Notes under the pieces: model-generated
What the model saw: only the letters and a program-made list of their open reading frames with translations
Databases searched by the model: none
What the model was told of the DNA's origin: nothing
Made by a program: the position numbers and the translations under genes
Source: Sanguibacter sp. HDW7
GTDB taxonomy: Bacteria > Actinomycetota > Actinomycetes > Actinomycetales > Cellulomonadaceae
Assembly (NCBI RefSeq): GCF_011300875.1
Contig: NZ_CP049862.1
Location: 2,542,001-2,606,000 of the forward strand
Reading direction: 5' to 3'
DNA length: 64,000 nucleotides
In this document: one piece after another, positions 24,830-56,210 of the stretch
How the letters are laid out: every line of letters begins with the position of its first letter
How positions within the stretch are numbered: the stretch's first letter is position 1

Positions 24830-25531
24830 TCACCGGGTCCCCCGGAAGACGACGACGCTCTCGGCGTCGGCGATGTCGACCTCGACCTCGAGGCGGCCGT
24901 CGCGGTCGTCCGTCCGGAAGACGTACGTCGCACGGACCGTGTCGTCCTGCGCGAGGGTCCGAGGCAGCGCGACGAGGCCGGGACCCGAGAGCGCCGAGGT
25001 CGGCAGCCGGTCCTTGCCCGTGTAGAGGTTGACGACCGCGCCTCGGAGGTCGATCGAGCGCTTCGTGGCGTTCGTGAGCTCGACGGTCACGCGGAGCGCG
25101 TCGCCCGCGGTCTCGCCCGGGCCTTCGGCGGTGCCGGCGACGTCCTCGACGTCGACGAGCCGCGCGGTGAGCCCGGGTGCGGGCTCGGCCGCGGCCTCGA
25201 GCCCGACCGTCTTCGCGCGCGGGCGGTCGACCGACGGGACGGGCTTCGGCGCGGCCGAGGGCTTGTCAGCCTTCGTGGGTGCGTCCGTCGGCTCCGACGT
25301 GGAGGTCGAGCCAGGCTCACCGGCCGGCGTCGACGTGCCGACGCTCGACCCCTCGACGGTGTTGCCCGCGGGTGTCGTCGCGGACGGCGCTGCCCCGGGC
25401 GTCGTGGGCACGTCCGGGTCGCACGCGACCGTGGCGAGCGCGAGCGGCACGCTCAGAAGCGCTGCGACGACCGCCCTGCGGCCGCTCAGCCGTGGTACGG
25501 CACCTTGCGCCGGTCCTGTCCGACGGTCCAT
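24830..25531 (-). CDS. putative lipoprotein, unknown function
   Basis: A 233-residue exported protein. The basic N-terminus and hydrophobic stretch end in LALATVACDPD, a lipobox-like site with Thr where Leu/Val is usual at -3, so lipidation is likely but not certain. A Thr/Ser/Pro-rich linker follows (about 40-105), then a beta-rich C-terminal domain with LRVTVELTNATKRSIDLRGA, reminiscent of DUF4352-type telokin-like domains. The ATG at 25531 follows an AAGGGGG site. It lies upstream of the large LamG/PKD gene with a 146-base gap and diverges from the glycosyltransferase at 25745, with phased TCACC repeats between them. A role in surface glycan assembly is inferred from context only. Confidence 0.65.
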   Translation of the reverse strand: MDRRTGPAQGAVPRLSGRRAVVAALLSVPLALATVACDPDVPTTPGAAPSATTPAGNTVEGSSVGTSTPAGEPGSTSTSEPTDAPTKADKPSAAPKPVPSVDRPRAKTVGLEAAAEPAPGLTARLVDVEDVAGTAEGPGETAGDALRVTVELTNATKRSIDLRGAVVNLYTGKDRLPTSALSGPGLVALPRTLAQDDTVRATYVFRTDDRDGRLEVEVDIADAESVVVFRGTR

Positions 25532-25628
25532 CCCTGGTCCCCCTTGATCGCCCCGTGCCACGGTCCTGCCGCAGCCTCATCCGATATTCGGGGACCGCCC
25601 CGGGGCGAGAGCCGGTTCTCGGGGTCGA

Positions 25629-25695
25629 GTCACCCGACGCTCACCCGGGGCTCACCTGCAGCCACCCGGCGGGCGGCGGCACACCTCGATAGGTT
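25629..25695 (+). promoter_or_regulatory. phased TCACC direct repeats plus -10 (PHO-box-like operator)
   Basis: TCACC starts at 25630, 25641 and 25652, exactly 11 bp apart. The -10 TAGGTT lies at 25690-25695, 38 bp after the start of the last repeat, and no -35 is recognisable. Direct repeats of 11-bp units with a TCAC core next to the -35 position are the hallmark of OmpR/PhoB-family sites, including the Streptomyces PhoP box. It can serve the plus-strand glycosyltransferase and perhaps the divergent lipoprotein gene. Confidence 0.55.
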
Positions 25696-25744
25696 GACGA
25701 GGGTTCGGCAGGGGTCGTCACGTGCCGAGAAGGGACAGGGAACG

Positions 25745-26686
25745 ATGCGAGCGCTCGTCGTCGTCAGCTACGGCTCGTCCGACCTCGTCGCCGAGAACCT
25801 CTCCTCCTGGACGGGGGGCGCGGCCGAGGGCTGGCGCGTCGTCGTCGTCGACAACGCGACGACGGCCGACGAGCGCCGCCGCATGACCGGGCTCGCGCAG
25901 GCCTCCGGCTGGACCCTCGTCGCACCCGACGCCAACCTCGGGTTCGGCGGCGGCTGCGCAGCAGGCGTCGCGGCCGCCGGGGACGTCACGAGCATCCTGC
26001 TGCTCAACCCGGACGCGCACGTCGACGTCGCGACGGCCGACGCGCTCGCCGGACGCGTCGAGGCCGACACTCGCCTCATGCTCGCCCCGCGCATCCTCGA
26101 CAGCACGGGACGTCCCGGATTCAGCGGCGCCCGGCTCGACGTCCGCAGCGGACGGTCGCGCGCCTGGAGCACGTCGGGCGGGGTGCCGTGGCTCACGGGG
26201 GCGTGCCTCGCGCTCGGGTCCGAGGCCTGGCACCGGCTCGGAGGCATCGCCCACGAGTACTTCCTCTACTGGGAGGACGTCGACCTCGGCTGGCGCTGGG
26301 ACGCGGCGGGCGGACGCAGCGAGATCGCCGAGGACCTCCGCTGCGTCCATGACCCCGGCGGTACTCAGCGCGGCAGGACGGCCTCGCGGGCGAAGTCCCC
26401 GACCTACTACTACTACGACACCCGCAACCGGCTCGTCTTCGCGCGCAGGCACCTGCCGCGCCGCGACCGGGCCCGCTGGGCGCTGCACGCGCCCGGCTAC
26501 GCATGGTCGTGCCTCATGCGCGGCGGCCGGCGACAGCTGCTCGACCCGGCCGCGACGCTGTGGCCTGCGCTCCGCGGCACCCTCGCGGGGCTCGTCGCGC
26601 TCGTCGGACCTGCACGGTCGTCGCACGCGGGTGAGGGTGGGGTCGGGGTGGGAAGAGGGCCGAAGGGGCGCGCTCACCCCTCCTGA
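25745..26686 (+). CDS. GT2-family glycosyltransferase (rhamnosyltransferase-like)
   Basis: A 313-residue GT-A enzyme: MRALVVVSYGSSDLVAENL, VVVVDNATTADE, PDANLGFGGGCAAGV, LLLNPDAHVD (metal-binding region) and the acceptor part YFLYWEDVDLGWRW are those of rhamnosyl- and related transferases. It would add a deoxysugar to the repeat unit. The ATG at 25745 follows AGGGA. The last 30 residues are Gly/Arg low-complexity. It is the first plus-strand gene of a pair with the Wzz/BY-kinase gene and is preceded by the phased TCACC promoter. Confidence 0.9.
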   Translation: MRALVVVSYGSSDLVAENLSSWTGGAAEGWRVVVVDNATTADERRRMTGLAQASGWTLVAPDANLGFGGGCAAGVAAAGDVTSILLLNPDAHVDVATADALAGRVEADTRLMLAPRILDSTGRPGFSGARLDVRSGRSRAWSTSGGVPWLTGACLALGSEAWHRLGGIAHEYFLYWEDVDLGWRWDAAGGRSEIAEDLRCVHDPGGTQRGRTASRAKSPTYYYYDTRNRLVFARRHLPRRDRARWALHAPGYAWSCLMRGGRRQLLDPAATLWPALRGTLAGLVALVGPARSSHAGEGGVGVGRGPKGRAHPS

Positions 26687-26778: not shown

Positions 26779-28383
26779 GTGGAACTCATGGACTTCGTGG
26801 CGACGCTGCGCCGACGCTGGCTCGTCATCATGATCGTCGCGGTGCTCGGCGCCGGCGCAGGCTTCGCCATGGCGCGGTCGACGCAGCCTCTGTACAGATC
26901 GACGACCTCGTCGTTCGTGTCGCTCACACAGGGCACGTCCGTCGCCGAGCTCGTCCAGGGAACGACATACACGCAGAACCTCGTGCAGTCGTTCACCCAG
27001 CTCGCGACGATGCCGGCGGTCCTCGACCCCGTCATCAACGAGCTCGGGCTCACCACGACAGCGCGGGCGCTCTCGCGGTCCGTCACCGCAGCGACGCCGC
27101 TCGACACGATGTTCATCGAGATCACCGCGGTCTCGCCCGACCCTGCTCTCGCCGCCGCGACCGCCGACGCGGTCGCGGCGAGCCTCGCACGGCAGGTCAA
27201 GGAGATCACCCCGGGATCCGCCGACGAGCACATCGTCCGGCTCACGGTCGTCGCGCCCGCCGTCGCAGCGTCGGTCCCCTTCACCCCGAACACGAAGCGC
27301 ACCGTCGCCCTGGGCGGTGCCGGCGGGCTCGCGATCGGCGTCTTCGTGGTGCTCGCGCTCTCGCTGCTCGACACGCGCGTGCGCCGCACCGCAGACCTCC
27401 CGCAGCGCTCCGACGCCGTCGTCCTGGGCCTCATCCCCCGCGACCGCGACGCACGCAAGGGCCGGCCCGCGCTCGTCGCCGAGCCCGACGGGCACGTCGC
27501 CGAGTCCTACCGGCGCGTCCAGACCAACCTCCAGTTCATCAGCGCGGCCAGCCGTGTGAGGTCGCTCGTCGTCTCCTCGTCCGTCGCGGGCGAGGGCCGG
27601 ACGACCGTCGCGATCAACGTCGCCGCCGCGCTCGCCGAGAAGGGGTCGCGCGTCCTCCTCGTCGACGCGGACCTGCGGAGCCCGTCGATCGCGCTCCACA
27701 CCGGGCTCGATCCCCGCGACGGGCTCACGACGGTGCTCGTCGGCGAGTCCGACCTCCGTGACGTCGTGCGACCGTGGGGACCCGCCGGGCTCGACATCGT
27801 CGTCGCTGGCGACCTCCCCCCGAACCCGGCGCAGCTCATCGACTCCGCCGCCATGCAGTCCTTCCTCGACGAGGCGACCGCGCTCTACGACGCGGTCATC
27901 CTCGACGCGCCGCCGCTGCTGCCGTTCACCGACGCGGCCGTCCTCGCCCGGCACACCGACGGTCTCGTCATGGTCGCCGGGACGTCCCGGGTCCGTCGCA
28001 CGCAGGTCGCGACCGCGCTCTCGATGCTCGACACGATCGACGCGACGTGCCTCGGCATCGTCCTCAACGGCGCCAACGCGCTCGAGTCGGGCACGCAGCA
28101 CCGCGCGGCCGCAGCACGCAACCTGCGGGCACGCTCGTCCGCACCGGCGGCGACGTCGACCGGTCCGCGGACCGCTGCAGCGGCTCCCGTCGGGCAGCAG
28201 CCGCTCGCCTCCCGCACCGGCGGCTACGGTCGCCGGGCGGCCCTTCCCGAGGGCCGCGGCGCAGCAGACACCCGGAGCGCCTCCGGCCAGGACCCTCGCG
28301 CCCAACGCGACGCCTCGCCCGCGCCCACGTCCGGTCCCGCAGCACCCGGGCACGGCGGCGGGACGGTCCGCCAGAGCGCCTGA
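26779..28383 (+). CDS. chain-length regulator fused to BY-kinase (Wzz-Wzc type) with altered Walker A
   Basis: A 534-residue protein with two membrane helices (about 14-33 and 172-195) flanking a Wzz domain, then a cytoplasmic BY-kinase domain: VAESYRRVQTNLQF, Walker A at about 268-277, Walker A' VLLVDADLRSPS and Walker B YDAVILDAPP. It controls polysaccharide chain length and export with Wzy. Two things are odd. The Walker A reads AGEGRTTVA, so the invariant lysine is arginine (codon CGG near 27598). The 100-residue Ala/Arg/Pro-rich tail has only one tyrosine instead of the usual cluster. The kinase may be weak or inactive. The GTG at 26779 was chosen over the ATG at 26788 because GGTGG lies just upstream. 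Confidence 0.88.
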   Translation: MELMDFVATLRRRWLVIMIVAVLGAGAGFAMARSTQPLYRSTTSSFVSLTQGTSVAELVQGTTYTQNLVQSFTQLATMPAVLDPVINELGLTTTARALSRSVTAATPLDTMFIEITAVSPDPALAAATADAVAASLARQVKEITPGSADEHIVRLTVVAPAVAASVPFTPNTKRTVALGGAGGLAIGVFVVLALSLLDTRVRRTADLPQRSDAVVLGLIPRDRDARKGRPALVAEPDGHVAESYRRVQTNLQFISAASRVRSLVVSSSVAGEGRTTVAINVAAALAEKGSRVLLVDADLRSPSIALHTGLDPRDGLTTVLVGESDLRDVVRPWGPAGLDIVVAGDLPPNPAQLIDSAAMQSFLDEATALYDAVILDAPPLLPFTDAAVLARHTDGLVMVAGTSRVRRTQVATALSMLDTIDATCLGIVLNGANALESGTQHRAAAARNLRARSSAPAATSTGPRTAAAAPVGQQPLASRTGGYGRRAALPEGRGAADTRSASGQDPRAQRDASPAPTSGPAAPGHGGGTVRQSA

Positions 28384-28393
28384 GCCCTGCACG

Positions 28394-28427
28394 GGTGAGC
28401 CGACGCCGTCAGCGGCGTCGGCTCACC
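28394..28427. terminator. 15-bp bidirectional terminator containing the wzx stop codon
   Basis: The arms GGTGAGCCGACGCCG and CGGCGTCGGCTCACC are perfect, with loop TCAG. It lies between convergent wzz and wzx. The minus-strand stop of wzx (28411-28409) falls in the loop, so the terminator overlaps the coding end. Confidence 0.7.
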
Positions 28428-29860
28428 GCCGCGCGCACGACCACGACGACGTCGGCGGCGTCCCTGCGGATCGCCGGGACGACGAGCACCGCGCCGAGCG
28501 CGGCGGCACCCGCGGCGAGCCCCACGAGCAGTACGAGCCATGCGGCCCCGTGGACGAGCGTCGTCCCGGCGTGGGCAGCGAGCGCCACGAAGGCTCCGAC
28601 GCCGAGGACATGCAGCGCACCGGTCGCGAGCCGGCGTCCCGGGAGCGGCGCGTGCCGTGAGAGCCAGGCGAGCGACAGCGGCCACTCGATCGCGTGCGCC
28701 AAGGTGTAAGCCGCGGCGACGCCGACGACGCCCCACGTGCTTCCCGCGACGACGAGGACGACCTTGAGCGCGACCGTGACGAGCGTGTAGCGGAGCAGGA
28801 GCGAGGACAGCCCGAAGACGAGGTAGACCCAGTAGCAGACGTACGCGAGGGTCTGCAGGAGCGCCGACGTCGCCATGAACCGCACGAGCGGCGCCGCGCC
28901 GTCCCAGCCGTCGCCGAGGAGCACCGCCGTCGCTGGGCCCGCCGTGCCGACGAGCAGCGCGGCGCCGATCATCACGGGGTACGCGAGGGCGAGCTGGGCC
29001 CGCACGAGGTACCGCCGCAGCCGGTCCGGCTCGTCGACGAGGCGCGCGAGCACGGGCAGCGCGATCGAGGTCGTCGGTGCCCGCACCTGCGAGACCGGGG
29101 TCATGACGAGGCGGTAGGCGCGGTCGTACAGGCCGAGAGACGTCGGGCCGAGGCGAGTGCCGATGACGAGCGCGTCGACGTTGTTGCCGATATAGACGGC
29201 GATCTGGGACGCGGCGAGGCTGCCGCCGAACCGCCAGAGCTCTGCCATCGGCACGCCGCGACGTGGCCGCGACGGGATCCAGCGGCACAGCACCGCGCAC
29301 GCGACGAGGACGACGAAGGACTGCGTGACCTGCTGCGCGGCGAGCGCCCCGACGCCGGCCCCGGCGAGTGCGAGGACGATCGCGACGACGGCGCCGACGA
29401 CCTGCGAGCCGACGTCGACCGCCGCGATCGCCCCGAAGCGGAGTCGACGCTGGAGGTCAGCGCGCAGCTGCGCGGTGAGCCCGTTGAGGAAGAACACGAC
29501 GGCCACCTGGCGGGCGACGGGCACGACGTCCTCGCGGCCGAAGAGGTGCCCGACGAGCGGGGCGCCGGCGAGCAGCGCGGTCATGAGCACCGTGCCGATG
29601 AGCGTGTTGGCCCAGAAGAGGTTGGAGCGCTGCGCCTCGGTGAGGTGCTTCGAACGCACCGCGGCGGTCGAGAGGCCAAGGTCGCGCACGACCTCGCCGA
29701 CGCCGACGACGACGAGCACCATCGCGATGACCCCGTAGTCGGCAGGCGTGAGGAGCCGCGCGAGGACGACGACGGAGAGCATCTGCACCCCGACTCGCGC
29801 GACCTGCGCCGCGACCGTCACGCCGGCTCCGCGCGCGGCGCGTCGGCCCAGTTCCTCCAC
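28409..29860 (-). CDS. Wzx-type polysaccharide flippase (MOP superfamily)
   Basis: A membrane protein of 483 residues with 12-14 helices, of the polysaccharide-transport MOP family (WzxC/TuaB branch). Recognisable parts are VVLARLLTPADYGVIAMV near the start, LGLYDRAYRLVMTPVSQV in the middle and DLGLSTAAVRSKHLTEAQRS. It flips undecaprenyl-linked repeat units to the outer face. The GTG at 29860 has GGGGAG three bases upstream; another GTG at 29878 would add six residues but lacks a ribosome site. It is convergent with wzz and divergent from the glycosyltransferase fusion gene. Confidence 0.9.
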   Translation of the reverse strand: MEELGRRAARGAGVTVAAQVARVGVQMLSVVVLARLLTPADYGVIAMVLVVVGVGEVVRDLGLSTAAVRSKHLTEAQRSNLFWANTLIGTVLMTALLAGAPLVGHLFGREDVVPVARQVAVVFFLNGLTAQLRADLQRRLRFGAIAAVDVGSQVVGAVVAIVLALAGAGVGALAAQQVTQSFVVLVACAVLCRWIPSRPRRGVPMAELWRFGGSLAASQIAVYIGNNVDALVIGTRLGPTSLGLYDRAYRLVMTPVSQVRAPTTSIALPVLARLVDEPDRLRRYLVRAQLALAYPVMIGAALLVGTAGPATAVLLGDGWDGAAPLVRFMATSALLQTLAYVCYWVYLVFGLSSLLLRYTLVTVALKVVLVVAGSTWGVVGVAAAYTLAHAIEWPLSLAWLSRHAPLPGRRLATGALHVLGVGAFVALAAHAGTTLVHGAAWLVLLVGLAAGAAALGAVLVVPAIRRDAADVVVVVRAAVSRRR

Positions 29861-29899
29861 GTGCTCCCCGTCCCCCACGTCGTGCTGCGGTACGTCGCG

Positions 29900-29954: not shown

Positions 29955-30057
29955 CCCGTGTGCCGGACCGGGCGGGGGCTGGGTGAGATCACCCGCCCCC
30001 GTCGGCGGTGCTGCCTACGGTGGACATGACCGCTCCGTCACGTCCCGAGGACCTACC

Positions 30058-32364
30058 GTGCCGCACCTGCTCGTCGCCCACCCGTCCGCCGATCTGTACG
30101 GCAGCGACCTCCAGCTGCTCGAGACGGTCGTCGCCGCGCGCGAGGGCGGCTGGGACGTCACCGTGACGGTGCCAGGGCCCGGTCCGCTCACCGCCCGGCT
30201 CGAGGCCGCCGTCGCACGCGTCGTCACGGACGCGCGGACCCCGGTCCTGAGGAAGTCGGCGCTCACCCCGCTCGGCCTCGTCCGGCTCGGCGCGGTCGCG
30301 CTGCGCTCCGTCGTCACCGGGCACGCGGTGCTGCGACGGCTGCGGCCCGCGGTCGTCCTCGTCAACACGCTGACGATCCCGACGTGGCTCGTGGCCGCGC
30401 GCCTCGCGCGCATCCCCGCGGTGTGCCACGTCCACGAGGCCGAGGACTCGGTGTCCCGCGTCCTGCAGCGCGGGCTCGTCGCGCCGCTGCGCCTCGCGAC
30501 GACGCTGCTCGTCAACTCGCGCGCATCCTCCGACGTCCTCACGGCGGTCGACGCCCGCCTGGCCCGGCACATCGTCGTCGTCCACAACGGCGTCCCCGAC
30601 GCGGGGACGCCCGCGCCCCTGCGCGAGCGGCACGCGGGCGACCCCGCGCACCTCGCGCTCGTCGCACGGATCTCCCCCCGCAAGGGCGTCGACGTCGCGC
30701 TCGAGGCCGTCGCGCTGCTGCGGGCCGAGGGGCGCGACGTCACCCTCGACATCTGCGGCACCCCGTTCCCCGGCTACGAACCGTTCGAGGACGAGCTACA
30801 GGAGCGCGCCGCGCGACCCGACCTCGCGGGAGCCGTCCGGCTGCGGGGCTACGTCTCACCGACGCGGCCGGCGCTCGACGCGGCCGACGTCGTCCTGGTC
30901 CCCTCGCGCCAGGAGCCCTTCGGCAACACCGCCGTCGAGGCGCTCCTCGCGGGCCGCCCCCTCGTCGCGAGCGCCACCCAGGGGCTCACCGAGATCGTCA
31001 CCCCCGGACGCACCGGCCTGCTCGTCGCCCCCGGCGACGCCCGCGACCTCGCTCAGGCCGTCGCATCGCTGCTCGACGACCCGCACCATGCGGCACGGCT
31101 CGCGCAGGCGGGCCGCACCGAGGCGGTCCGCCGTTTCGGCGTCGCCCGGTACCGGGCCGCCGTGCGCGACGTCCTCGACGGGCTCGTCGGCTCCCGGGAC
31201 CGGGACGGACAGGTCGTGAGCGCGAGCTTCGGCACGCCGACCGCACCAGCCCCCGACGACGACCCGACGCCGACCGCCGACGTCATCGGGCTGCACGAGG
31301 TCGCCGCGCACCGCAGGGAAGCCCACGCGACGCTCACCGTCGTCATCCTCACCTTCCGGCGCGACCCCGAGCTCCGGAGGTCGCTCGCCGCGGTCCTCGC
31401 GCACCTCGACGGTCTGCCCGGACTCCGCGGCCGCACCGAGGTGCTCGTCATCGACAACGACCCGGACGGCGGCGCTGCGGCGACGGTCGTCGCCTGCGCC
31501 GAAGCCTCGCACGCGGAGGGGGGTCCGGAGGTCCGCTACGTCCACGAGCCGCAGCCCGGCATCGGCGCCGCACGCGCCCGCGCGCTCACGGAGGTGACGA
31601 CCGACCTGCTCGCGTTCCTCGACGACGACGACATCCCCGGCGAGACCTGGCTCGCACCTCTCGTCACGACGTGGGCGGCGACGGGGGCGACGCTCGTCGC
31701 CGGCACGATCGTGCCGCAGTGGGACGTCCGCCCCGACGCCTGGATCGAGGCCGGCGGGTTCTTCCAGCGTCCCGTCCTCGCGACAGGGACGCCCCGGCGG
31801 AGCGCCCCGACCGGCAACCTCCTCGTCGACGTCGCGGCCGTGCGCGCGCTCGGCGTCGCGTTCCGGGCCGACCGCGGGCTGCGCGGGGGCGAGGACACGC
31901 TCTTCACGCGCCAGGTCACCGCGGCGGGCGGTGAGATCGTCGCGTGTGCCGAGTCCATCGTCGTCGACCGCGTCCAGCCCGAGCGCACCGAACGTCGCTG
32001 GCTCCTCGGCAGGACCCGCACCCACGCGTCGACCGCGGTCGAGGTCGAGCTCGAGCTCGCGCCCGGCCTCTGGGGACGGTCCCGCGTCCGTGCGGCGTCG
32101 GCTGCGCGCGGGGTGGCTGTCACCGCGCGAGGAGCGCTGCGGCTCCTCACCGCGCGGGGTGACGACGCGAGGGACGTCGGGGCACGCCGCGACCTCGCCC
32201 GAGGCCCCGGGCTCGTCGCCGGCGCGCTCGGCCTCCACCACGAGGCCTACCGCCGCGACACCGACCCCTCACGCACGACGGCGCCCGCCACGGACGGGTC
32301 CGTGGCGGGCGCCGTGAGCATCGCTGCTCGTCCCTCGTCGAGGGTGCGCGTCAGCCGTTCTTGA
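30058..32364 (+). CDS. fused GT4-GT2 double glycosyltransferase
   Basis: A 768-residue protein with two catalytic domains. Residues about 1-385 form a GT-B fold of the GT4 family: HLLVAHPSADLYGSDLQLLE, VARISPRKGVDVALEAV, and the donor-site VPSRQEPFGNTAVEALLAGRP with the family EX7E pattern. A linker of about 35 residues leads to a GT2 GT-A domain (about 420-690) with VVILTFRRDPELR, VLVIDNDPDG, YVHEPQPGIGAARARAL and LAFLDDDDIPGETW. The second half is paralogous to the enzyme at 18634-19554. It could add two sugars in succession. The GTG at 30058 has GAGG seven bases upstream. The last 30 residues are encoded by a terminator hairpin and overlap the convergent gene's end by 14 bases. Confidence 0.9.
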   Translation: MPHLLVAHPSADLYGSDLQLLETVVAAREGGWDVTVTVPGPGPLTARLEAAVARVVTDARTPVLRKSALTPLGLVRLGAVALRSVVTGHAVLRRLRPAVVLVNTLTIPTWLVAARLARIPAVCHVHEAEDSVSRVLQRGLVAPLRLATTLLVNSRASSDVLTAVDARLARHIVVVHNGVPDAGTPAPLRERHAGDPAHLALVARISPRKGVDVALEAVALLRAEGRDVTLDICGTPFPGYEPFEDELQERAARPDLAGAVRLRGYVSPTRPALDAADVVLVPSRQEPFGNTAVEALLAGRPLVASATQGLTEIVTPGRTGLLVAPGDARDLAQAVASLLDDPHHAARLAQAGRTEAVRRFGVARYRAAVRDVLDGLVGSRDRDGQVVSASFGTPTAPAPDDDPTPTADVIGLHEVAAHRREAHATLTVVILTFRRDPELRRSLAAVLAHLDGLPGLRGRTEVLVIDNDPDGGAAATVVACAEASHAEGGPEVRYVHEPQPGIGAARARALTEVTTDLLAFLDDDDIPGETWLAPLVTTWAATGATLVAGTIVPQWDVRPDAWIEAGGFFQRPVLATGTPRRSAPTGNLLVDVAAVRALGVAFRADRGLRGGEDTLFTRQVTAAGGEIVACAESIVVDRVQPERTERRWLLGRTRTHASTAVEVELELAPGLWGRSRVRAASAARGVAVTARGALRLLTARGDDARDVGARRDLARGPGLVAGALGLHHEAYRRDTDPSRTTAPATDGSVAGAVSIAARPSSRVRVSRS
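32278..32315. terminator. 18-bp perfect hairpin inside the 3' end of the fusion gene
   Basis: The arms 32278-32295 and 32298-32315 (core GGCGCCCGCCACGGAC) are perfect complements. The hairpin precedes the plus-strand stop at 32364 by about 50 bases and follows the minus-strand beta-helix stop (32351) by 35 bases. It is best read as the beta-helix gene's terminator, overlapping the end of the opposite coding sequence. Confidence 0.6.
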
Positions 32365-34017: not shown

Positions 34018-34078
34018 TCACCCGAGGCTCACCCCTGACCTCACCCCGCTCTCGATACCACCCACCCCGAGACTCACC
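34018..34078. promoter_or_regulatory. array of TCACC direct repeats
   Basis: TCACC starts at 34018, 34029, 34041 and 34074, spacings of 11, 12 and 33 bp, all near multiples of one helical turn. They lie about 250 bases before the beta-helix gene, which they face in the GGTGA orientation, opposite to the promoter repeats at 25630, 29943 and 12785. Confidence 0.4.
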
Positions 34079-39762: not shown

Positions 39763-41369
39763 CGTGCGCTGTCTCCTTCGGGTGCGGCGTCACCCGGGAC
39801 TGACTGTCCCGGGAGCGTGGGGGTGGCGGCGCTCTCGGCCCGCTCACGCTCGGCGCGCGCCTGCGCGCCGAGGCCCTGCGGCACGGTGGCCGCGGCCGCG
39901 CGGGCCGCTGCCCGCGCCGAGTCCGTGCCCGGCCTGCGGCGCTCGACCCAGCCGTCGATCGTCCGCTGCGGTGCGTTCGAGACGGCCAGGGCGCCCGGCG
40001 GGACGTCCTCGAGGATGACGGCACCGGCGCCCGTGTAGGCGCCGTCGCCGACGGAGACGGGGGCGACGAACTTGTTGTTCGCGCCCGTGCGGGCGTACGA
40101 GCCGACCGCGGTGCGGTGCTTGTGGACGCCGTCGTAGTTGACGAAGATCGAGCCGGCACCGATGTTCGTTCCCTCGCCGATCGTCGCGTCACCGACGTAC
40201 GTGAGGTGCGGAACCTTCGAACCCTCACCGATCTCGACGTTCTTCGTCTCGACGAACGTGCCGATCTTGCCGCGCACCCCGAGGTGCGTGCCCGGGCGCA
40301 GGTAGGCGAACGGGCCGACGCTCGCGCCGTCGGCGAGGACCGCGAGCGAGCCGTGCGTGCGCACGACCATGACGTTCTCGCCGACCTCGACGTCCGTGAG
40401 CGTCGTGTCCGGGCCGATCGTCGAGCCCGTACCAACGGTCGTCGCGCCGTGGAGCTGGGTGCCCGGGAGGATCGTCACGTCCTGCGCGAGCTCGACGTCG
40501 ACGTCGATCCACGTCGTGCCCGGGTCGACGACCGTGACTCCCGCGAGCATGTGCCGGGTGAGCGTGCGGCGGTTGAGCTCCACGCCGAGCTGTGCGAGCT
40601 GCGCGCGGTCGTTGACGCCCTCGACCGTGAGGGCCGAGCGGGCCTGGACCGCGCCGACGACGCCGCCGTCGGCGCGCGCGATCGCGAGGACGTCGGTGAG
40701 GTAGACCTCGCCCTGCGCGTTGTCCTGGCCGAGTCGCCCGAGGGCGCCGCGGAGGACGGCCGCGTCGAAGACGTAGATCGAAGAGTTGATCTCGCGGATG
40801 CCGAGCTGCTCGTGCGACGCGTCGCGGTGCTCGACGATGCTCGCGACCCGGCCACGCTCGTCGCGGACGATGCGGCCGTAGCCCGTCGCGTCCGGGACGA
40901 CCGCGGTGAGGACCGTCGCGGCGTGCCCGCCGGCGACGTGCTGGGCGTGGAGGTCCGCGAGCGTCTCGGTGTCGATGAGGGGGACGTCGCCCGCGACGAC
41001 GACGACGGTGCCCTCGAGCCCGACGAGCGCGCCTGCGGCGACTCCGCCGGCCCCGGCCTCGGTCGCGTGCGCGGCCGCGTCGAGACGTTCGAGCGCGCAC
41101 TGGACGGCACGTCCCGTGCCGGGCACGTCGTCCTGGTCCGCGACGACGACCTCGGGGACGCGCGCGAGAGCCTCCGCCGCGACCTCCTCACGGGCGTGGC
41201 GGACGACGACGACGAGGCGCTCGGGGTCGAGCCCCTGCGACGCGGCGAGGACGTGACCGAGGACTGTGCGCCCACCGATCGCGTGAAGCATCTTCGACGT
41301 CGCGGACCTCATGCGGGTCCCCTGGCCTGCGGCAAGGACAACGACGGCGGCGGGGCGTGCGGCGGTCAC
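39759..41369 (-). CDS. glmU: bifunctional UDP-N-acetylglucosamine synthesis enzyme GlmU
   Basis: A 536-residue enzyme that acetylates glucosamine-1-phosphate and uridylylates it to UDP-GlcNAc for peptidoglycan and other glycans. The N-terminal pyrophosphorylase has VVVLAAGQGTRMRSATSKML and the metal-binding VVAGDVPLID. The C-terminal left-handed beta-helix has YLRPGTHLGVRGKIGTFVE and YVGDATIGEGTNIGAG, with the acetyl-CoA site NYDGVHKHRTAVGS. An extra 60-residue Ala/Arg/Glu tail is common in actinobacteria. The GTG at 41369 has GGAG five bases upstream. Confidence 0.97.
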   Translation of the reverse strand: MTAARPAAVVVLAAGQGTRMRSATSKMLHAIGGRTVLGHVLAASQGLDPERLVVVVRHAREEVAAEALARVPEVVVADQDDVPGTGRAVQCALERLDAAAHATEAGAGGVAAGALVGLEGTVVVVAGDVPLIDTETLADLHAQHVAGGHAATVLTAVVPDATGYGRIVRDERGRVASIVEHRDASHEQLGIREINSSIYVFDAAVLRGALGRLGQDNAQGEVYLTDVLAIARADGGVVGAVQARSALTVEGVNDRAQLAQLGVELNRRTLTRHMLAGVTVVDPGTTWIDVDVELAQDVTILPGTQLHGATTVGTGSTIGPDTTLTDVEVGENVMVVRTHGSLAVLADGASVGPFAYLRPGTHLGVRGKIGTFVETKNVEIGEGSKVPHLTYVGDATIGEGTNIGAGSIFVNYDGVHKHRTAVGSYARTGANNKFVAPVSVGDGAYTGAGAVILEDVPPGALAVSNAPQRTIDGWVERRRPGTDSARAAARAAAATVPQGLGAQARAERERAESAATPTLPGQSVPGDAAPEGDSAR

Positions 41370-41420
41370 ATGGACTCCGGTCGCTCGGGGGCGGGACAGA
41401 CCTCAGGAGGTCCGGGAACG

Positions 41421-41426
41421 AGTCTA
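41421..41426 (-). promoter_or_regulatory. -10 element of the glmU-prs-SIMPL promoter
   Basis: TAGACT followed by CG on the minus strand, about 52 bases before the glmU start. It is the same -10 with the same flank as at mfd, wzx and the ABC-F gene. Confidence 0.5.
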
Positions 41427-41461
41427 CCGCCGTGTCCGGCGCCGACGTCCGGGACGTCCTG

Positions 41462-41533
41462 CTCCGCCCCCGGGACTCGAACCCAGACTGCACGGCTCCA
41501 AAGGCCGGCGTGCTGCCATTACACCAGGGCGGA
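41462..41533 (-). tRNA. trnQ: tRNA-Gln (anticodon TTG)
   Basis: A 72-base cloverleaf on the minus strand. The acceptor stem TCCGCCC/GGGCGGA has discriminator G; the anticodon loop CTTTGGA sits between CCGGC and GCCG; the T loop is GGTTCGAGTCC. The CCA end is not fully encoded (CA follows the discriminator). It lies between divergent glmU and the TetR gene, a common place for tRNA-Gln in actinobacteria. Confidence 0.95.
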
Positions 41534-41635
41534 CCGGCGCACCGACGTGCGCCGCCCCCGATTCTGCCAGCCGACGGGTGGACACCCGACCACCGCGCCT
41601 GTCCCCGGCCGCGCGCGCACGGCATGATGGGGACC

Positions 41636-42565
41636 GTGTCCGCCGAGAACAAGAGGGCCCCACGTGCCCGCATGTCAGCCAAGGAGCGTCGCGAGCAGCT
41701 GCTCGCCGTGAGCCGCGAGCTCTTCGGCGCCAAGGGCTTCGACGGCACGAGCATCGAGGAGATCGCCGCCCGCGCACAGGTCTCCAAGCCCGTCGTCTAC
41801 GAGCACTTCGGCGGCAAGGAGGGCATCTACGCGGTCGTCGTCGACCGGGAGGTCGAGGCCCTCACGAGCGCGCTCACGCGCGCCCTCGAGGCGGGCGGGC
41901 ACCCGAAGATCCTCGTCGAGCGCACCGCGATGGCGCTCTTCGACTACATCGAGGCCAACGAGGACGGCTTCCGCGTGCTCGTGCGCGACTCGCCCGTCAC
42001 GCAGTCCTCGGGCACGTTCTCGAGCCTCATCGGCGACGTCGCGATGCAGGTCGAGCACCTGCTCGGCGCGCAGTTCACCCGCCGCGGGCTCGACCCGCGC
42101 TACTCCCCCATCTATGCGCAGATGCTCGTCGGCATGGTGGCCCTCACGGGCCAGCACTGGCTCGACCAGCGCACCGCCTCGAAGGAGGAGGTCGCGGCGC
42201 ACCTCGTCAACCTCGCGTGGAACGGGCTCGCGGGCATGGAGCGCGCGCCCGTCCTGCCGACGCGCACCGCCGTGGGCTCCGCGACCGCGGACGGGGCACT
42301 GCTCGGCCTCGCCGACGACACCCCAGGGGCAGAGGCGGCGAAGGCCGCCGCCCTCGACGCCAAGGAGCGCGCCCGCGCCGAGAAGGACGCCGCACGCGAG
42401 CAGGCCCGCCTCGACAAGGAGCGCGAGAAGGCCGAGAAGGATGCGGCGCGTGAGCGCGAGCGGGCGGAGAAGGAGGCGGCCCGCGAGGCCGCGCGCCTCG
42501 CGAAGGACTCCGCGCGCGCACGCTCGGCCGCCGACGAGCCCGGCACGTCGACCGCGACGCGCTGA
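41636..42565 (+). CDS. TetR-family regulator with long charged helical tail
   Basis: A 309-residue TetR-type repressor. The DNA-binding domain is at about 15-65 (SAKERREQLLAVSRELFGAK, then FDGTSIEEIAARAQVSKP and VVYEHFGGKEGIYAVVVDRE), followed by a ligand-binding domain to about 215. The protein then continues for about 70 residues of Ala/Lys/Glu/Arg repeats (for example EKAEKDAARERERAEKEAAR), a likely single long charged helix not part of the usual 200-residue TetR. The GTG at 41636 has GGGGA two bases upstream; ATGs at 41624 and 41672 are alternatives. Its regulated gene is unknown. Confidence 0.88.
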   Translation: MSAENKRAPRARMSAKERREQLLAVSRELFGAKGFDGTSIEEIAARAQVSKPVVYEHFGGKEGIYAVVVDREVEALTSALTRALEAGGHPKILVERTAMALFDYIEANEDGFRVLVRDSPVTQSSGTFSSLIGDVAMQVEHLLGAQFTRRGLDPRYSPIYAQMLVGMVALTGQHWLDQRTASKEEVAAHLVNLAWNGLAGMERAPVLPTRTAVGSATADGALLGLADDTPGAEAAKAAALDAKERARAEKDAAREQARLDKEREKAEKDAARERERAEKEAAREAARLAKDSARARSAADEPGTSTATR

Positions 42566-42709: not shown

Positions 42710-44608
42710 TCACGGCATCGGCGTGAGCTTCTCGTAGTCCTCGACCGTGCCGTCGCGCAGGCACGTCTCGATGATCTCGCGACCCAGCGGGTCGAGCTCG
42801 TCCGTGAGGTACTGCTTGAGCTCCTCCTTGAAGAACTCGACGAGGGTCTGCGCACCGGCGTCGTACGCCTCGAGGCCGACCTGCGACTGGTTCTGCGGCT
42901 GGAGGAACGTCGGGCGCACGAGCTGACCGTCGAGCTTCACCTCGGTCGGCGTGTAGCCGAACAGGGCGCAGCGGGCCGGCGTGAGGCGGTCCTTGGGGAA
43001 CTTGCCGCCGCCACGACGCGCGAGGTACTCGCGGGTCAGCCACTCGGCCGCGAAGCCCACCTTGTACGCACCGATGTGCTGGTTGGGCGTGAGCACGTAG
43101 CGCGTGCGGTCCGCCGCGACGAGCTGGCGCAGCAGGAGGTTCGCCGCAGCGACCTTCGTGCCCGTCGAGAACGGCCAGTACGAGCCGACGCCCTCGGAGA
43201 CGAGACCGCCGTGCTTGAGCTTCTTGACGTCGTCCTTCGACTCGCCGATCGACGGGTTCTTGTCGCCGCGCGGCGCGATGAGGCGCCACAGCCACGCGAG
43301 GGACGCGGGCACGACGTGCATCATGCCCATGACGCCGTACGACGGCTTCTCGCGCGTGCACGCCGGCATGCGCACGCCGAAGGTGCGCACGTCGATCGCC
43401 ATGGGCTCGTCGACGACGTCCTTGATCATGTGGCGCGGGATGACGACGCGCGGGTTGGGGCAGCGCTTGCCGTTCGAGTCGAGCGAGTGCTCCCACGGGA
43501 GGATCGTCGCGCCGGGCGTGCCCTGGATCGAGAAGAACACGAGCGGGGCGTCGGGCTCGATGCAGGCGCGCTCGAAGTGCGGGTCGTCGCCGTAGTGCTG
43601 CATGCCGTCGACGCGGACGAACCAGCCGTCCTCGGCGTCGGCGACGACGAGCTGGCCGTCGACCGTCTGGATGTCCTTGTGGCACAGCGTCATGTCGTCC
43701 GTGACGGGCGCGAGCCGCGAGGCCTCGGAGAGGTTGATGAAGTACGGCTCGTCGGTGACGACGTTCGTGCCGAGAAGGATGCGACCGTCGTCCTGACGGC
43801 GGATGTCCTGGCACATCTCGGACTTGCCGCCGCCCGAGGCGCCCTCGTGCATGATGATCGTCTCGTTCTCGTACGGCGTCGTCACGCGCACCGACGAGGC
43901 GTGGGCGGTGATCCAGCCCTCCTGCTCACCGATGTCGAGCAGCGCCGAGAACACGCCCTTCTTCGCCGAAGGCCCCGGGTAGAGGTTGTACGCGTAGATC
44001 TCGTGCAGCGTCTCCGAGCGGTCGTGGACGACGACCTGGCGGCCCTTGTAGTGCGTGTGCCGGAACGGCGGCGCCGCGTAGAGGATCGAGCGGGGCGCGT
44101 AGGGCTCGAGCTCGTCGAGCGTCACGAAGCCCTGGAGGTCGACGAGCGCGGTCGCGAAGAACGCCGTGTTGGCGGGGACGATCGCGAGCGACGGCGAGCC
44201 GTACGTGAGGCCGCCCGCCTTGAACGGGACGACGATGAGGTCCTGGGTCGCGAGCCAGTCGAGCGTCTCCTGCTTGACGGGCGCGAACGGGGCGCCGTAG
44301 ACGTCCTCGTAGCGCGGCTTGTCCGTCGGCCGGGGGTCCGCGATCCGCATGCAGTCGGGGTCCCGACGGCGCATGTAGTCCTCGGGGTAGTTGACGGCGA
44401 TGCCGTTGCGACCTCGGACGATCTCGGCCTCGACGATCGTCGAGCCGTCGGGCAGCGGGTAGACGACGTCGAACCTGTCACCGCCGTCCGGACCGAGCGA
44501 GAGCTCGAAGAGCTCGGCGCGCGTCCGGGGGACGACGACGGACGGCGCGGCCTCGATCGCAGCCTTGACCGCCGGCGGCAGCGAGACCTTGGCGAGCAGT
44601 TCTTCCAC
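42710..44608 (-). CDS. large P-loop protein, probably DUF4914 family (PEPCK-like P-loop)
   Basis: A 632-residue cytoplasmic protein without signal peptide or membrane helix. The central EGASGGGKSEM (about residues 250-262) is a Walker A-like loop resembling that of PEP carboxykinases and HPr kinases. Other conserved-looking blocks are AVNYPEDYMRRRDPDCMRIA, VVTDEPYFINLSEASR, DAPLVFFSIQGTPGATILPW and LTPNQHIGAYKVGFAAEWL. From memory the overall pattern fits DUF4914, a family of unknown function; the kinase or carboxykinase-like activity is inference and I could not assign a catalytic metal site. The GTG at 44608 has GGAG six bases upstream. It is monocistronic, framed by terminators on both sides. 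Confidence 0.65.
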   Translation of the reverse strand: MEELLAKVSLPPAVKAAIEAAPSVVVPRTRAELFELSLGPDGGDRFDVVYPLPDGSTIVEAEIVRGRNGIAVNYPEDYMRRRDPDCMRIADPRPTDKPRYEDVYGAPFAPVKQETLDWLATQDLIVVPFKAGGLTYGSPSLAIVPANTAFFATALVDLQGFVTLDELEPYAPRSILYAAPPFRHTHYKGRQVVVHDRSETLHEIYAYNLYPGPSAKKGVFSALLDIGEQEGWITAHASSVRVTTPYENETIIMHEGASGGGKSEMCQDIRRQDDGRILLGTNVVTDEPYFINLSEASRLAPVTDDMTLCHKDIQTVDGQLVVADAEDGWFVRVDGMQHYGDDPHFERACIEPDAPLVFFSIQGTPGATILPWEHSLDSNGKRCPNPRVVIPRHMIKDVVDEPMAIDVRTFGVRMPACTREKPSYGVMGMMHVVPASLAWLWRLIAPRGDKNPSIGESKDDVKKLKHGGLVSEGVGSYWPFSTGTKVAAANLLLRQLVAADRTRYVLTPNQHIGAYKVGFAAEWLTREYLARRGGGKFPKDRLTPARCALFGYTPTEVKLDGQLVRPTFLQPQNQSQVGLEAYDAGAQTLVEFFKEELKQYLTDELDPLGREIIETCLRDGTVEDYEKLTPMP

Positions 44609-44828
44609 GGGTTTCTCCTCACGTGTGCAAGCGCACGCGTGCCGCCGGGGGGCGACGTCGCGTACGAGCGGCCGGTGGTCGCCCCGGGACGGGCCTTGAC
44701 CTGCCGTTGACTTCCACGTTAGCCGTGGCTCCCCGGCAGAATCGTGGGACCTTGGACCACACCTCGTGTCCACCGTTCGGACGGCGGGCGGGAGCATGCG
44801 TGGACGCCGCGCGCGCACCGACGACGAC

Positions 44829-44897: not shown

Positions 44898-47800
44898 TCA
44901 GGCGTTGCGCCTGCGCACCGCCACGAGGACGAGGCCCACGAGCACGAGCAGCGCCGCGAGGCCTGCCGCGCCGAGCACCTGGGCGCCCGTCACCGGGAGC
45001 CCCGGCTCGTCGGTCGGCTTGTCCGTCGGCTCGTCCGGACCCTCGGTCGGGCGCGAGTCGTCGTCGTCGAACGTGTTGACGACGCGCACCGTGACGTCCG
45101 TGCCCGTGAGCACGACGTCCGCGCTCGTGCCGGTCGCCTCGCGCTCGACGCCGTCCTGGACGACGACGACGCTCGTGGCGTCGGCGTCACCCGTCTCGAC
45201 CTCGGTGACCGTGCAGTCCGCGGCGGCGGGAAGGTCCGCGTACCGCGTCGTGAGGCCGGCCGCCCGCGAGAGCGTGCGGCGGGCGCCGCCCGGCACCTCG
45301 ACGTCGACGGTCTCGCCGTCGACCTCGCGCGTGCAGACGAGCTCGACGACGAACTCGGCGCTGCGGGCGCTGGACGCGCCCTCACCCTCGACCGACTTCG
45401 TCACCTCGACCGCCGCGACGTCGAACGTGTTCGTCACCGTGAACGACGCGGGCGTCGCCCCCGGGTCCGTCGCGTCCGTCACCGTCGCGGAGCCCACCGT
45501 GACGACCGACGCGTCCGCGCCGCCCGTCCGGGTCTCCGAGACCTCGCACGTCGCACCGGCCGGCAGGTGCCCGACCGTGAGCGTCGGCGAGGTGGCCGAG
45601 AGCTCGTGGAGCCCGTCGTGGACGGTGCCGCCCGCGACGTCGTCGGCCGTGCACACGAGGCGGACCTGGAACGTGCCCGTGCCCCACAGCGCGGCGCCCG
45701 CGCCGTCGACGACCTTCGTCACCGTGACGGGACCCGTCGGCAGCGTGTTCGTCACGACGACACCGTGGTCGACGCCGCGCTCGAGCGTGAGCGTCGTCGT
45801 CGCGACGGTCACAGGCGCGCCCTCGACCTCGTCGGCGACCTGCGTGACCGTCGTGCTCGTCGCACCTGCAGCGTCGGTCTCCGTGACGGTGCAGACCGAG
45901 CCGACGGGCACGCCGCCGATCTCGCGGGAGCCGTCCTGCGCAAGCGTGAACGCACGGTCGGCCGGGGCGAGGACCTCGGTGCCGCGGAACACGCAGCTCG
46001 CCTCGAACGCGAACGACGTCGTGTACGTCACCGGGGTGCCGTCGGCCGCGAGAGCTCCGTCGACCTTCTTCGTCACGGACAGACCCGTGAGCTCGTAGGT
46101 GTTCGTCACCGTGAGGGTCGACGTCTCGCCCGCGACGAGCGTCACGGGGTCGGACACCTGCACGTCGGTCTGGCCGGCGCCCGTCGTGTCCTCCTCGATC
46201 GTGCAGACCGAGCCCTCGGGCGCGTCGCCGACCGTGACGACCGTGCCGTCGCCCGGCAGCGTGACCTTGCCGCCGTTCGGCAGCGGCACCGACGCGCCCT
46301 CCCACGTGCAGGAGACCGTCGCGGAGAAGTCGGCGGGGGCGAAGCCCTTGCCGTCACCCACGACGAGCTTGCGTGCGACGACCGAGCCGTCGAGGAACGT
46401 GTTCGTCACCGTGATGCCCGCGGTCGCGGTGCCCTCGAGCACCTCGAACGTCGGCGGCGTCGGCGACGGCGTCCCCGTGCCGACCGTGTACTCCACGGTC
46501 TGCGGCGTCGGGGTCGACGTCGTCTCGGAGAGCTCGCACGTCGCGCCGGTCGGCAGGCCCTCGTACGTCACGGTGCGGGTGGTCCCCGTGCCCGTGAAGG
46601 TGCGGGTCGCGCCGCCGGGCACCGCGACGGGCACCTGGGCGCCGTCGACGGGGCGCGTGCAGACGAGCGTCACCGTGTACGTGCCGTCGAGCGCGGGGTC
46701 GAGCGTCGGAGCCGTCGGGCCCTCGATGCTCTTCGTGACCTCGAGGTCGCCGGTCGTGAACGTGTTCGTCGCCGTGACCTCGACCGGGTCGGTGAGGTCG
46801 GCGGTGACGACGACCGTCGCCGAGGCCTCGGTCGCCGGCATCGCCGCCGGGTCGTCGACCGTCACCGTGCCGTCGGGCGCGGTGAACGCCACGGCGTTCG
46901 CCCCGCCGCGCGCCGGCTCCGTGACGACGCACTCAGCACCGACCGGCAGGTTCTCCGGCCGCCACGTGAGGTCAGCGGTCGTCCAGGGGTCGTCCGCGTC
47001 GGCACGCTCGAACGTGTGCGAGCCGTCCCAGACCACGAGGTCCGCTCCGCCGACGCCCGCACCCGGAAGGGTGCAGACCATGTCGAGCTCGAACGGGCCG
47101 ACCGCCCACACGGGCGTGCCGTCGGGCAGGACGCCGCCGTCACCGGCGATGTCCTTGACGACCTCGATCGCGCCCACGGGGTAGGTGTTCGTGTAGTCGA
47201 CCGTCACCGACCGCGCCTGCGCCGAGCCGGCGCCGACCGTGAACGTCGCCGAACGGCCCGACGTCGTCGGGGAACCACCCGTGACGTCGATCGACGTCGT
47301 CGAGGCGTCGCCCGGGGGCTGCTCCGTCACCGTGCACTCAGAGCCGACCGGCATGCCGTCGACCGTCACGACCTCGTCGTGCGCGAGAGTCACGGACGCG
47401 ACCACCTCGGTCACGGCCACGCCGCGGAACTCGCACGCGATGGCGAACGTGAACGACCGGCCGATCGCGACGCCGGCCCCGGCCGCGTCGAGCGCGCCCG
47501 TGACGACGTCCTTCGACAGGTCGAAGCCCGCCGAGAGGTCGTAGCGGTTCGTCACCGTGAACGTCGTGAACGGTGCCGCGTCAGCGATCGCGATCTCGTC
47601 CGTCGGCGTGATCGGAGTCGGGGCCGTCTCGCCGGGCTGCGTGACCGTGTACGAGACCGCGGTCTCGCCGTGGTCACCGGTCTCCTCGACCGAGCACGTC
47701 GACCCGACCGGGAGTCCGCCGACCGTCACCGAGCCGCCCGCCGGCACCGTGATCGGCGCCGTCGGCGACACGTCGTCGCCGTACCAGTCGCACGTGAGCG

Positions 47801-50800
47801 TCACCTCGAAGTCCGTCGGGACGTACTTCGAGTCGACCGCACCCGTGACGGACTTGGCGAGCGTCACGGACGTCGTGCCGAACGAGTTCGTCACGTCGAG
47901 CGCGACGTCGTTCGTGCTGCCGACCGTGAGCTGGCCGCCGTTGGTGATCGTCGTCCCCTGGGCCTGCGGGGTCGATGAGACCTCGCTGAGCGTGCAGTCC
48001 GCGTCCGTCGGCAGGCCCGCGTAGCGTGCCACGGCGCTCGTCGCGAAGTCGATCGTGCGGCGTGCCCCGCCCGGGACTGTGACCGGGACCGTCACGCCGT
48101 CGACCACGCGCGTGCACACGAGCTCGACGATGTACGTGCCCTGCTTCGCGGCCACCAGCTCGGCCGGGTCACCGGCGAGCTTCTTCGTCACGACGACGTC
48201 ACCCTGGAGGAACGTGTTCTCGACGTCGACAGTCGCGGTACCACCAGCAGCGACGGCCACCGGGCTACCCACGATCTTGGAGTTCGCACCGCCCGTCGCG
48301 GTCTCGGTGACGGTGCACGTCGCGCCGACGAGGAGATTCCCGACCGTCCACGTCTGCGACGGCCACGTCGACGACGCGGCCCGGGCGAAGGTGTGCGTGC
48401 CCGAGTAGACGAGCTTCTGGGCACCGCCGACGCCGACCGGCGCCGTGCACGTCATGGAGACCGTGAACGGGTCGTCCGCCCACGCGGCGCCCGCACCACG
48501 GACATGCTTGGTCACCGCGACCGACCCGACCGGGTAGGTGTTGGTGAAGGCCGCCGTGACACCCGTCGCTGGGACACCCGGCGCGGGGAGCGTGAACGTC
48601 GTCGTCGATCCCGACCCGGACGCGGTCGCACCGGTGACCTGGACGGCCGGGACCGAGCCGTCACCGGCAGCCGTCTCCGTCACCGTGCACTCCGCACCCA
48701 CGGGCAGGCCCGTGAAGGTGTGAGATCCGCCGTCCGTGACCGTCGTCGTCAGCGTCTGCGAACGTCCGTCGAGCGTGCAGACCAGCGAGAACGCGAAGGA
48801 GCGTCCGATCACGGGGGTGCCCGTGCCGTCCGACGCCTCCGTCCCGACGGCCTTGCTCACGGTGACCGTCGTCGCGACGTACTCGTTGGTCGCGGTGAAC
48901 CCGAGCGTCGGCTGCCCGAGTGCCGGGACCTCGGTCGCGGCCGACGGAGAGAACGTCACGTTCGTCGCGCCGTGCGCGTTCGGCTCTGAGATCTGGCACG
49001 ACGACCCGACGGGCACGCCCGTCACAGTTGCCGTGCCGTTCGCCGGGACCGCCACCGTACGATCAGGCAGGGACTCGCCCTGCCACGTGCACGCGAGCGT
49101 GAGCGAGTAGCTCGGCGCACCCCAGGCTGCGGCACCGCCGGTCACCAGCTTGGTGAGGATCACGCTCGTGTCGACGATCGTGTTCGTCAGCGTGAGCGCC
49201 GCATCCGTCCCCGAGCCGACCGTCACCGGGCCGTCCGAGGCCGCCGTGTAGTCGACGCCCGCGACGAGGGTCTTGCCGCCGACCGACGCCGAGAGCTCGG
49301 TGACGTCGCAGACCGCATCCGTGGGGAGCAGGTCCCACGTGGCGGCGAACGAGCCGGTCGAGCCGAGCGTCCTGTCGCTGCCGCCCGGGATCGAGATGGG
49401 GCTGCCGCCGACCGTGCACCCGAGGCGCACCTCGTACCCGGCGTCCGCGTCGCGCAGCACGTCAAGGTCCTTCGCGGCACCCGCGAACGCCTTCGTGACC
49501 CTCACGCCCCCCTCGCGGAAGTCGTTCGTCACGCCGATGCTCACGGTCGTGCCGTCACCGACACGGACCTGGCCGTTCGCCGGGGTCGTCGTCACGTGCG
49601 CACCTGCGCTGACCGGCTCCGTGAGGGTGCAGGTCGCGCCCGTCGGCAGGTCGTCGACCGTCTCGGAGATCGTCCGGCCTGCCCACGAGGTGCGTCCGCC
49701 GTCCGTCTTCCCATAGGTGAACGTCTTCCGGTAGACCTCCCGCGGCGAGGTGAGCCCCGCCGGCTGAGCGATCGCGCACACGAGGTCGAGCGAGATCGTG
49801 CTGCCGCTCCAGCGCTCGATGCCGGGGCCCGTGAACGTCTTCTCGAACGACAGCGAGCCGGTCGAGAACGTGTTGGTGAACGCGGTCGTCGACGCCGTGG
49901 CGTCACCCGGGCCGTTCTCCTGGGCGAGGTGGTCCGTCACCGTGAAGCGCGTCGTGCCGTTCGCCGGCGTGCCGACGACGGTCGCACCGGCGTCCGTCGT
50001 CACCATCGCGACCGACTGGCCCGCGTTGCTGCGGCTCACCTCCGTGACGCTGCACTCCGACCCCACAGGGATCTGCGTGAACGTGAGGCTCTGGCCGTGC
50101 TCGAGCGAGAACGAGGTCTCGCCTGCGACAAGGACCTCACGGCCCAGGTAGGTGCAGCTTGCGGTGAAGGCGTACGGCCAGTCACGGACGAGGAGGTCGC
50201 CATCCTGGTCCTTCGCGCCACCGTCGTCGACATTCTTCGTCACGGTGAAGCCCGAGTTGGCATACGTGTTCGTCACGTCCGCGCGCGGCCGCTCAGCGGT
50301 CGCCGGCGCCCACGGGTGGTGGACGGCCGCGTTGCTCGCGAGCGAGGCGAGCGCGGTGAGCGTGCCCGGCGTCGTACCGCCCGGCGCGTAGGAGACCTTG
50401 ACGCCCGCGGGCTGGCCCTCCTCCGTCACGGTGCACTCCGCGAAGAGCGGCAGGTTCGTCGTCGTTGCGTCGAGGACGCGCGAGCCGCCCGCGGGGACCG
50501 TGACGACAAGGTCGTCCTCGTCCTCACGGATCCACGCGCTGACGCCCGGCGTCACCGTGTCGCGCTTGAGCGCGAGCTTGGCACCGCCCACGCCCGGTGC
50601 GAAGCACGCGAGGCGGAACGTGTAGCTCGTCGGGAGCGCCGCGGTCGCGCCGGGACGCCACAGGGAGGTGCCGTCGCCTGCCGACGGGGTCCGGACGATC
50701 TTCGCGACGTCGATCGCGCCGGGCGCGGTCGCGACGCCGACCTTGCGCGGCTCGATGACTGTCGAGACGCGGAGAGTCCCGTTCGCGGTCGCACGGGCAC

Positions 50801-56141: not shown

Positions 56142-56210
56142 AGTGACCTCCCCCGTCTCCGTGCAGCCTTGCGCGTCGCCCGTCGATGGGGACGCTTCCA
56201 TGCTGGTCAG

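Follow-up and report, generated by a model that had tools for sequence, protein, structure and literature searches.

The canonical PHO box of Streptomyces is given, in the available parts of the source, as GTTCACCC, with 9 bp between the CA pairs (PMC7244524). The accessible portions of two further reports describe PhoP units that contain TCACCCG, GTTCACCCGCC in S. hygroscopicus (PMC6784220) and gttcacccggc at pstS of S. coelicolor (PMC3004843). PhoP of Mycobacterium tuberculosis recognises 7-bp motifs with a strict 4-bp spacer (TCACAGC-N4-TCACAGC), and DNA with three and four motifs, which occurs in some promoters, was also measured with this protein, as far as the excerpted account goes (PMC4832192). 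For MtrA, the text available gives GTNACC-N5-GTNACN in Streptomyces and GTCACAgcg repeats in mycobacteria (PMC13189361), and PolR of Microlunatus phosphovorus, a protein resembling DevR, is described in the excerpt at hand as binding GTTCACnnnnnGTTCaC at phosphate genes (PMC6754071). A literature search that covered few subscription papers returned no paper on the operator considered here, nor any on regulation in Sanguibacter or Flavimobilis.

The stretch of DNA analysed, referred to as the window, comprises 64,000 bp (G000:C1:2542001-2606000) of the genome of Sanguibacter sp. HDW7 (source genome G000; 3,351,553 bp, single contig, 72.6% G+C). Direct reading and a script both place the pentamer TCACC at 25630, 25641 and 25652, with spacings of 11 and 11 bp, so the three copies described in an earlier note on this DNA lie exactly where it put them, one helical turn apart. 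The starts of the three units are 60, 49 and 38 bp upstream of the hexamer TAGGTT, and a sigma-70 two-hexamer scan of 25500-25800 gave 0 promoters, in agreement with the note's proposal of a -10 element 38 bp downstream of the last copy and without a -35. Tandem operators of the OmpR/PhoB type consist of at least two direct repeats with a period of one turn (11 bp, 7+4), placed at a fixed distance before a -10 with no accompanying -35, and both of these features are present here. The elements and the surrounding genes are listed in Table 1.

Table 1. Positions (in the window) of the repeat units, promoter elements and genes of the polysaccharide cluster.
Feature	Position	Strand	Remarks
Unit 1, TCACCCG	25630..25636	+	Invariant over four genomes
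Unit 2, TCACCCG	25641..25647	+	11 bp after unit 1; invariant over four genomes
Unit 3, TCACCTG	25652..25658	+	11 bp after unit 2; invariant in TCACC, variable in the final two bases
-10-like hexamer, TAGGTT	25690..25695	+	TAGGTT or TAGCGT in relatives
Likely ribosome-binding site (purine-rich)	25730..25740	+	Inferred from reading of the sequence
Glycosyltransferase-like gene, 313 aa, first gene of the promoter	25745..26686	+	PF13641, 22 bits (cut-off 27)
Wzz-type chain-length domain plus tyrosine autokinase	26779..28383	+	TIGR01007, 151.8 bits (cut-off 108)
Putative lipoprotein gene, divergent	24830..25561	-	No Pfam or NCBIfam match
Polysaccharide flippase-type protein, same cluster	28409..29878	-	
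Two-domain glycosyltransferase, same cluster	29983..32364	+	
Second TCACC group in the cluster	34018..34078	+	34018, 34029, 34041, 34074; steps of 11, 12 and 33 (hand count)

There is one exact triple in the window and no other in the whole genome, so that the scan for three TCACC at 11-bp spacing proposed in the earlier note returns a single site, and a reversed control pattern is found 0 times in the genome. TCACC-N6-TCACC pairs are more frequent, with 3 in the window (25630, 25641 and 34018) and 16 in the genome. When up to 3 mismatches are allowed the triple has 4 matches in the window versus a mean of 2.37 in shuffled sequence, indicating that this loose pattern is not rare; two of the three inexact matches are shifted registers of the same site. 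Single pairs often lie in coding DNA (of 40 examined loci with a pair, 19 have it within an open reading frame, genes being called roughly from GC3); for the triple in the source genome, the equal frequency in coding DNA that the earlier note would have counted against its proposal was not observed. The glycosyltransferase frame is itself open far upstream in the source genome, and a coding origin of the repeat was considered, but coding constraint does not explain it because a step of 11 bp is not a multiple of 3, and the shorter open frames in the relatives fit such constraint equally poorly. An RNA element was also rejected, with 0 Rfam matches in 25300-26000 and the repeats lying upstream of the likely transcription start, expected near 25701-25703. 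MraZ-type repeats have a period of about 10 bp and a TGGGA-like sequence, and both period and sequence rule them out.

The earlier note had assigned exopolysaccharide genes to this promoter, and this is borne out mainly by the second gene, which passes the cut-off of an NCBIfam model for polysaccharide biosynthesis autokinases, whereas the first gene has only a sub-threshold match to glycosyltransferase family 2. The divergent lipoprotein gene could share the same operator. The second TCACC group in the cluster is likely intergenic and upstream of a minus-strand gene for a secreted Lys/Ala-rich protein that starts near 33766; it is absent at the equivalent place in the relatives, and the cluster of one of them (G002) has another extra pair. 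Among the 32 window proteins scanned, the regulators are of the TetR (41357-42565) and MarR (58590-59117) families; no OmpR-type (PF00486) gene was found in the window, and a locally encoded OmpR-type regulator was therefore rejected. Elsewhere in the window, a DUF4914 protein (1039 bits) is encoded at 42710-44818, and an open frame on the minus strand spans 44898-56201; its 3767 codons show strong GC3 bias and correspond to a giant protein.

Conservation was examined in six genomes of the genus (Sanguibacter/Flavimobilis), namely the source genome and five relatives (G001-G005). The exact triple is present in four of the six (G000, G002, G004 and G005), once in each genome and just upstream of the orthologous glycosyltransferase gene. 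In G001 three copies are kept with spacings of 11 and 12 bp. The glycosyltransferase is present in four of the five relatives and absent from G003, a genome with no exact triple and with a two-mismatch match elsewhere (C2:265083). In an alignment of the intergenic region (25562-25744) from the four genomes, 19 of 19 motif columns are invariant versus 32 of 164 others (Fisher 1.6e-12, a value that treats columns as independent, the four genomes being two close pairs). The only invariant runs of at least 3 columns are 25630-25636, 25641-25647, 25652-25656 and 25690-25692, the last being the TAG of the -10. The unit starts are at -60/-49/-38 relative to the -10 in two genomes and at -61/-50/-39 in the other two, and the CG that follows TCACC is kept in 8 of 8 instances of units 1 and 2. 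The presence of a unique triple at an orthologous promoter in four of six genomes, together with the invariance of the motif columns, places the site beyond chance.

Outside the genus this association is not seen in general. A TCACC pair within 400 bp upstream of relatives of the glycosyltransferase was found at 3 of 80 loci (the best 80 of 305 found), and all three belong to this genus. The exact triple was found in 25 of 99 related genomes (41 rows), and its TCACCCG form in 15 of 221 members of the family (17 rows). Those outside the genus are mostly before unrelated genes, as judged from 30 loci read for the exact triple and from 11 of the 13 outside-genus rows for the TCACCCG form. The only clear case of a polysaccharide gene after an outside-genus box, among the loci read, is a Bac_transf gene in G021 (L037), where a terminator-like inverted repeat follows the box; in G218 (L250) the gene resembled one for a sugar transferase by eye, yet the 222-residue piece has no Pfam match. 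A family-wide polysaccharide regulon therefore found no support, and the scans indicate that the association of box and polysaccharide genes is a genus-level one. Two closely related genomes share a separate TCACC pair before a CTP_transf_3 (NeuA-like) gene (L160, G000:C1:986061, and L170, G004:C14:595115), which may reflect background conservation.

We consider it probable that the triple constitutes one tandem operator for a winged-helix response regulator of the OmpR/PhoB type, situated before polysaccharide genes. This reading is based on a unique and conserved triple, its fixed distance from the -10, and the 11-bp TCAYC repeat of the pst promoter beside a RegX3-type gene. We infer from these sequence features that an OmpR/PhoB-type response regulator would bind the three units upstream of the -10 and, once bound, would activate the polysaccharide promoter, which has no -35; the signal that such a protein would carry is predicted on the same footing. 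The genus-wide RegX3/PhoP-type PHO regulator and one of its paralogues are both possible binders; alternatively, the protein at the triple may be a repressor or may regulate the divergent gene. The proposal in the earlier note of an OmpR/PhoB-type site thus stands as regards the 11-bp repeat, the activator position and conservation in the genus. Identity with a PHO box is more doubtful, the GT prefix being absent.

The PHO box of the genus itself can be recognised at two conserved places. The pstS gene was located in all six genomes by a family model, and in all six a TCAYC-N6-TCACC pair is found upstream of it, at -47/-36 from its -10; this pattern was searched without GT, and GT nonetheless precedes 12 of 12 units. 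A RegX3-type response regulator gene is immediately upstream of pstS (best PDB match RegX3 2oqr, E 3.6e-96), so a RegX3/PhoP-type regulator of the kind that acts at PHO boxes is encoded in the genome. A search for GTTCACC-N4-GTTCACC with one mismatch allowed gave 23 rows in the six genomes and recovered the pst sites. The second conserved box is between guaB1 and a gene for a PHO4-family phosphate transporter (pit; family tested on the G002 piece), also in six of six genomes, and it faces away from the transporter gene, possibly a sign of repression. The conserved pst and pit sites define a PHO box GTTCAYC-N4-GTTCACC in the genus. G000 and G004 also share a PHO box beside VTC and DUF4956 genes, and a PHO-box locus of the source genome is at G000:C1:2789500-2795500 (L192).

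One interpretation, a special case of the tandem operator, is that the triple is an off-consensus PHO box to which the RegX3/PhoP-type protein encoded next to pstS binds, such that the exopolysaccharide genes would be phosphate-responsive; we regard this as possible, though less likely than not. The triple shares the TCACC core and the 11-bp step with the pst and pit boxes, and its units 2 and 3 are within 2-3 bp of the position of the pst pair relative to the -10. The dimer of the source genome scores 13.0 with a PHO matrix and is among the best 5 of 222,592 positions (the window plus 16 loci of G000, both strands, the triple site included), and the TCACCCG in the PhoP units GTTCACCCGCC and gttcacccggc of Streptomyces, in the excerpted reports (PMC6784220, PMC3004843), matches units 1 and 2. 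The spacing to the -10 and this shared heptamer keep RegX3/PhoP among the possible binders. However, the best dimers of three relatives score only 8.8, and units of the form GTTCAYC, as at pst and pit, are not found at the triple, where GT precedes 0 of 12 units in the four genomes compared with all 12 pst units and with 12 of 12 pit units, the latter selected with a GT pattern. T at position -1 is present in 2 of 12 triple units versus 24 of 24 pst and pit units (Fisher 2.6e-7, treating units as independent and with the pit half selected with GT in the pattern), and the pst and pit units do not share the conserved CG after TCACC. Because the defining GT prefix is missing we do not file the triple as a PHO box, although the same protein may still bind it. 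Phosphate control of the polysaccharide promoter is correspondingly conceivable rather than expected, given that a key feature of PHO boxes is missing.

A second interpretation is that a paralogous OmpR-type regulator with a preference for TCACCCG binds the triple as a largely single-target operator, which we consider somewhat doubtful. In its favour are the CG kept after TCACC and the missing GT, both unlike the PHO box, and the distribution of TCACCCG-N4-TCACC pairs, of which the source genome has three exact instances, all inside this gene cluster, G002 and G005 have them only at this promoter, and G004 has two others. There are 9 PF00486 matches in the source genome, and 7 groups are common to all four genomes with the exact triple; all 7 are also present in G001 and G003, and since G003 is without the exact box, co-occurrence points to no particular regulator. 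In G000, the 350 bp before each of the 9 regulator genes contain no TCACC pair, and thus no autoregulatory link is evident. The protein encoded at G000:C1:2484687 is a candidate binder, named from the resemblance by eye of its recognition helix (STKTLDMHV) to that of the RegX3-type protein (DTKTLDVHV), and all five relatives have it, at 88-99% identity. Against this candidate, the region upstream of its gene contains no TCACC-type repeat and no operator is known for it. That the TCACCCG triple is distinct from the PHO box and would serve a shifted-specificity OmpR-type paralogue as a genus-wide, nearly single-target switch of surface polysaccharide is on balance an unlikely proposition.

Binding of the triple by MtrA, by GlnR or by the paralogue resembling M. 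tuberculosis PhoP is improbable, even though all of these use direct repeats of the 11-bp type with a TNAC or TCA core. The PhoP-like paralogue has M. tuberculosis PhoP as its best PDB match (E 6e-90) and, by reading, keeps the base-contacting residues of that protein except for a valine to isoleucine change, but a TCAG/TCAG/YCAG 11-bp repeat is directly upstream of its gene in four of four genomes (L184, L308, L309, L310). This repeat is likely an autoregulatory operator, and its conservation before the protein's own gene suggests that the preference of the PhoP-like paralogue is probably for TCAG; TCACCCG in turn matches TCACAGC at 4 of 7 bases and shares its 4-bp spacer. MtrA is present (389.9 bits, cut-off 300). 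A GTAACC-N5-GTGACC box is beside a DUF348 (RpfB-like) gene in G004 (L273, G004:C11:408514), with a near-identical match at G000:C1:2606754, just past the end of the window, which weakly suggests GTRACC as the MtrA preference in the genus (3 of 38 rows examined). At the triple, G is at -1 in only 4 of 12 units and never in two adjacent ones. The GlnR site is GTNAC-N6-GAAAC, and by reading its second half, GAAAC, is absent from the triple.

DevR-like regulators belong to the LuxR/NarL class. The site of PolR, with the same period and core in the available text (PMC6754071), means that 11-bp TCAC repeats are no proof of an OmpR-type protein, and a regulator of another fold could in principle act here; PolR's site, however, shares with the PHO box the GT that the triple lacks, and we think such a binder very unlikely. 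Chance or background conservation without function has the least to commend it and is hardly credible, since a three-mismatch pattern no rarer than in shuffles and the exact triples of other genera, mostly before unrelated genes, are set against a site that is unique, orthologous in four genomes and invariant in every motif column.

Read as an operator for an OmpR/PhoB-type regulator, the triple is a concrete candidate for a control element of polysaccharide genes in Sanguibacter/Flavimobilis. A single genome carries two 11-bp repeats that are much alike, one at genes of phosphate transport and the other at polysaccharide genes, and their contrast offers a good case for studying how OmpR-type paralogues keep apart. 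If a paralogue of shifted specificity were indeed the binder, the shared TCACC core would allow phosphate and a second signal to meet at one promoter.

Among described sites, that of MtrA shares with the triple the 11-bp period and the TNACC core, in the part of the source available, but in the triple the N is always C and a preceding G is the exception. The PolR site GTTCACnnnnnGTTCaC has, in the excerpt, the same period and a TCAC core, and differs in its GT prefix and in a regulator that resembles DevR rather than one of OmpR type. The M. tuberculosis PhoP site is similar in its 7-bp motif and 4-bp spacer, its TCAC register and, in the accessible account, the binding of tri-repeats, whereas the triple has CCG in place of AGC and the PhoP-like paralogue of the genus appears to use TCAG. 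The Streptomyces PHO box and the pst and pit boxes of the genus have in common with the triple their 11-nt direct repeats, the TCACC core and an activator position before the -10; the triple differs in that all 12 of its units are without GT, in having three units where pst has two, and in its location at a polysaccharide promoter.
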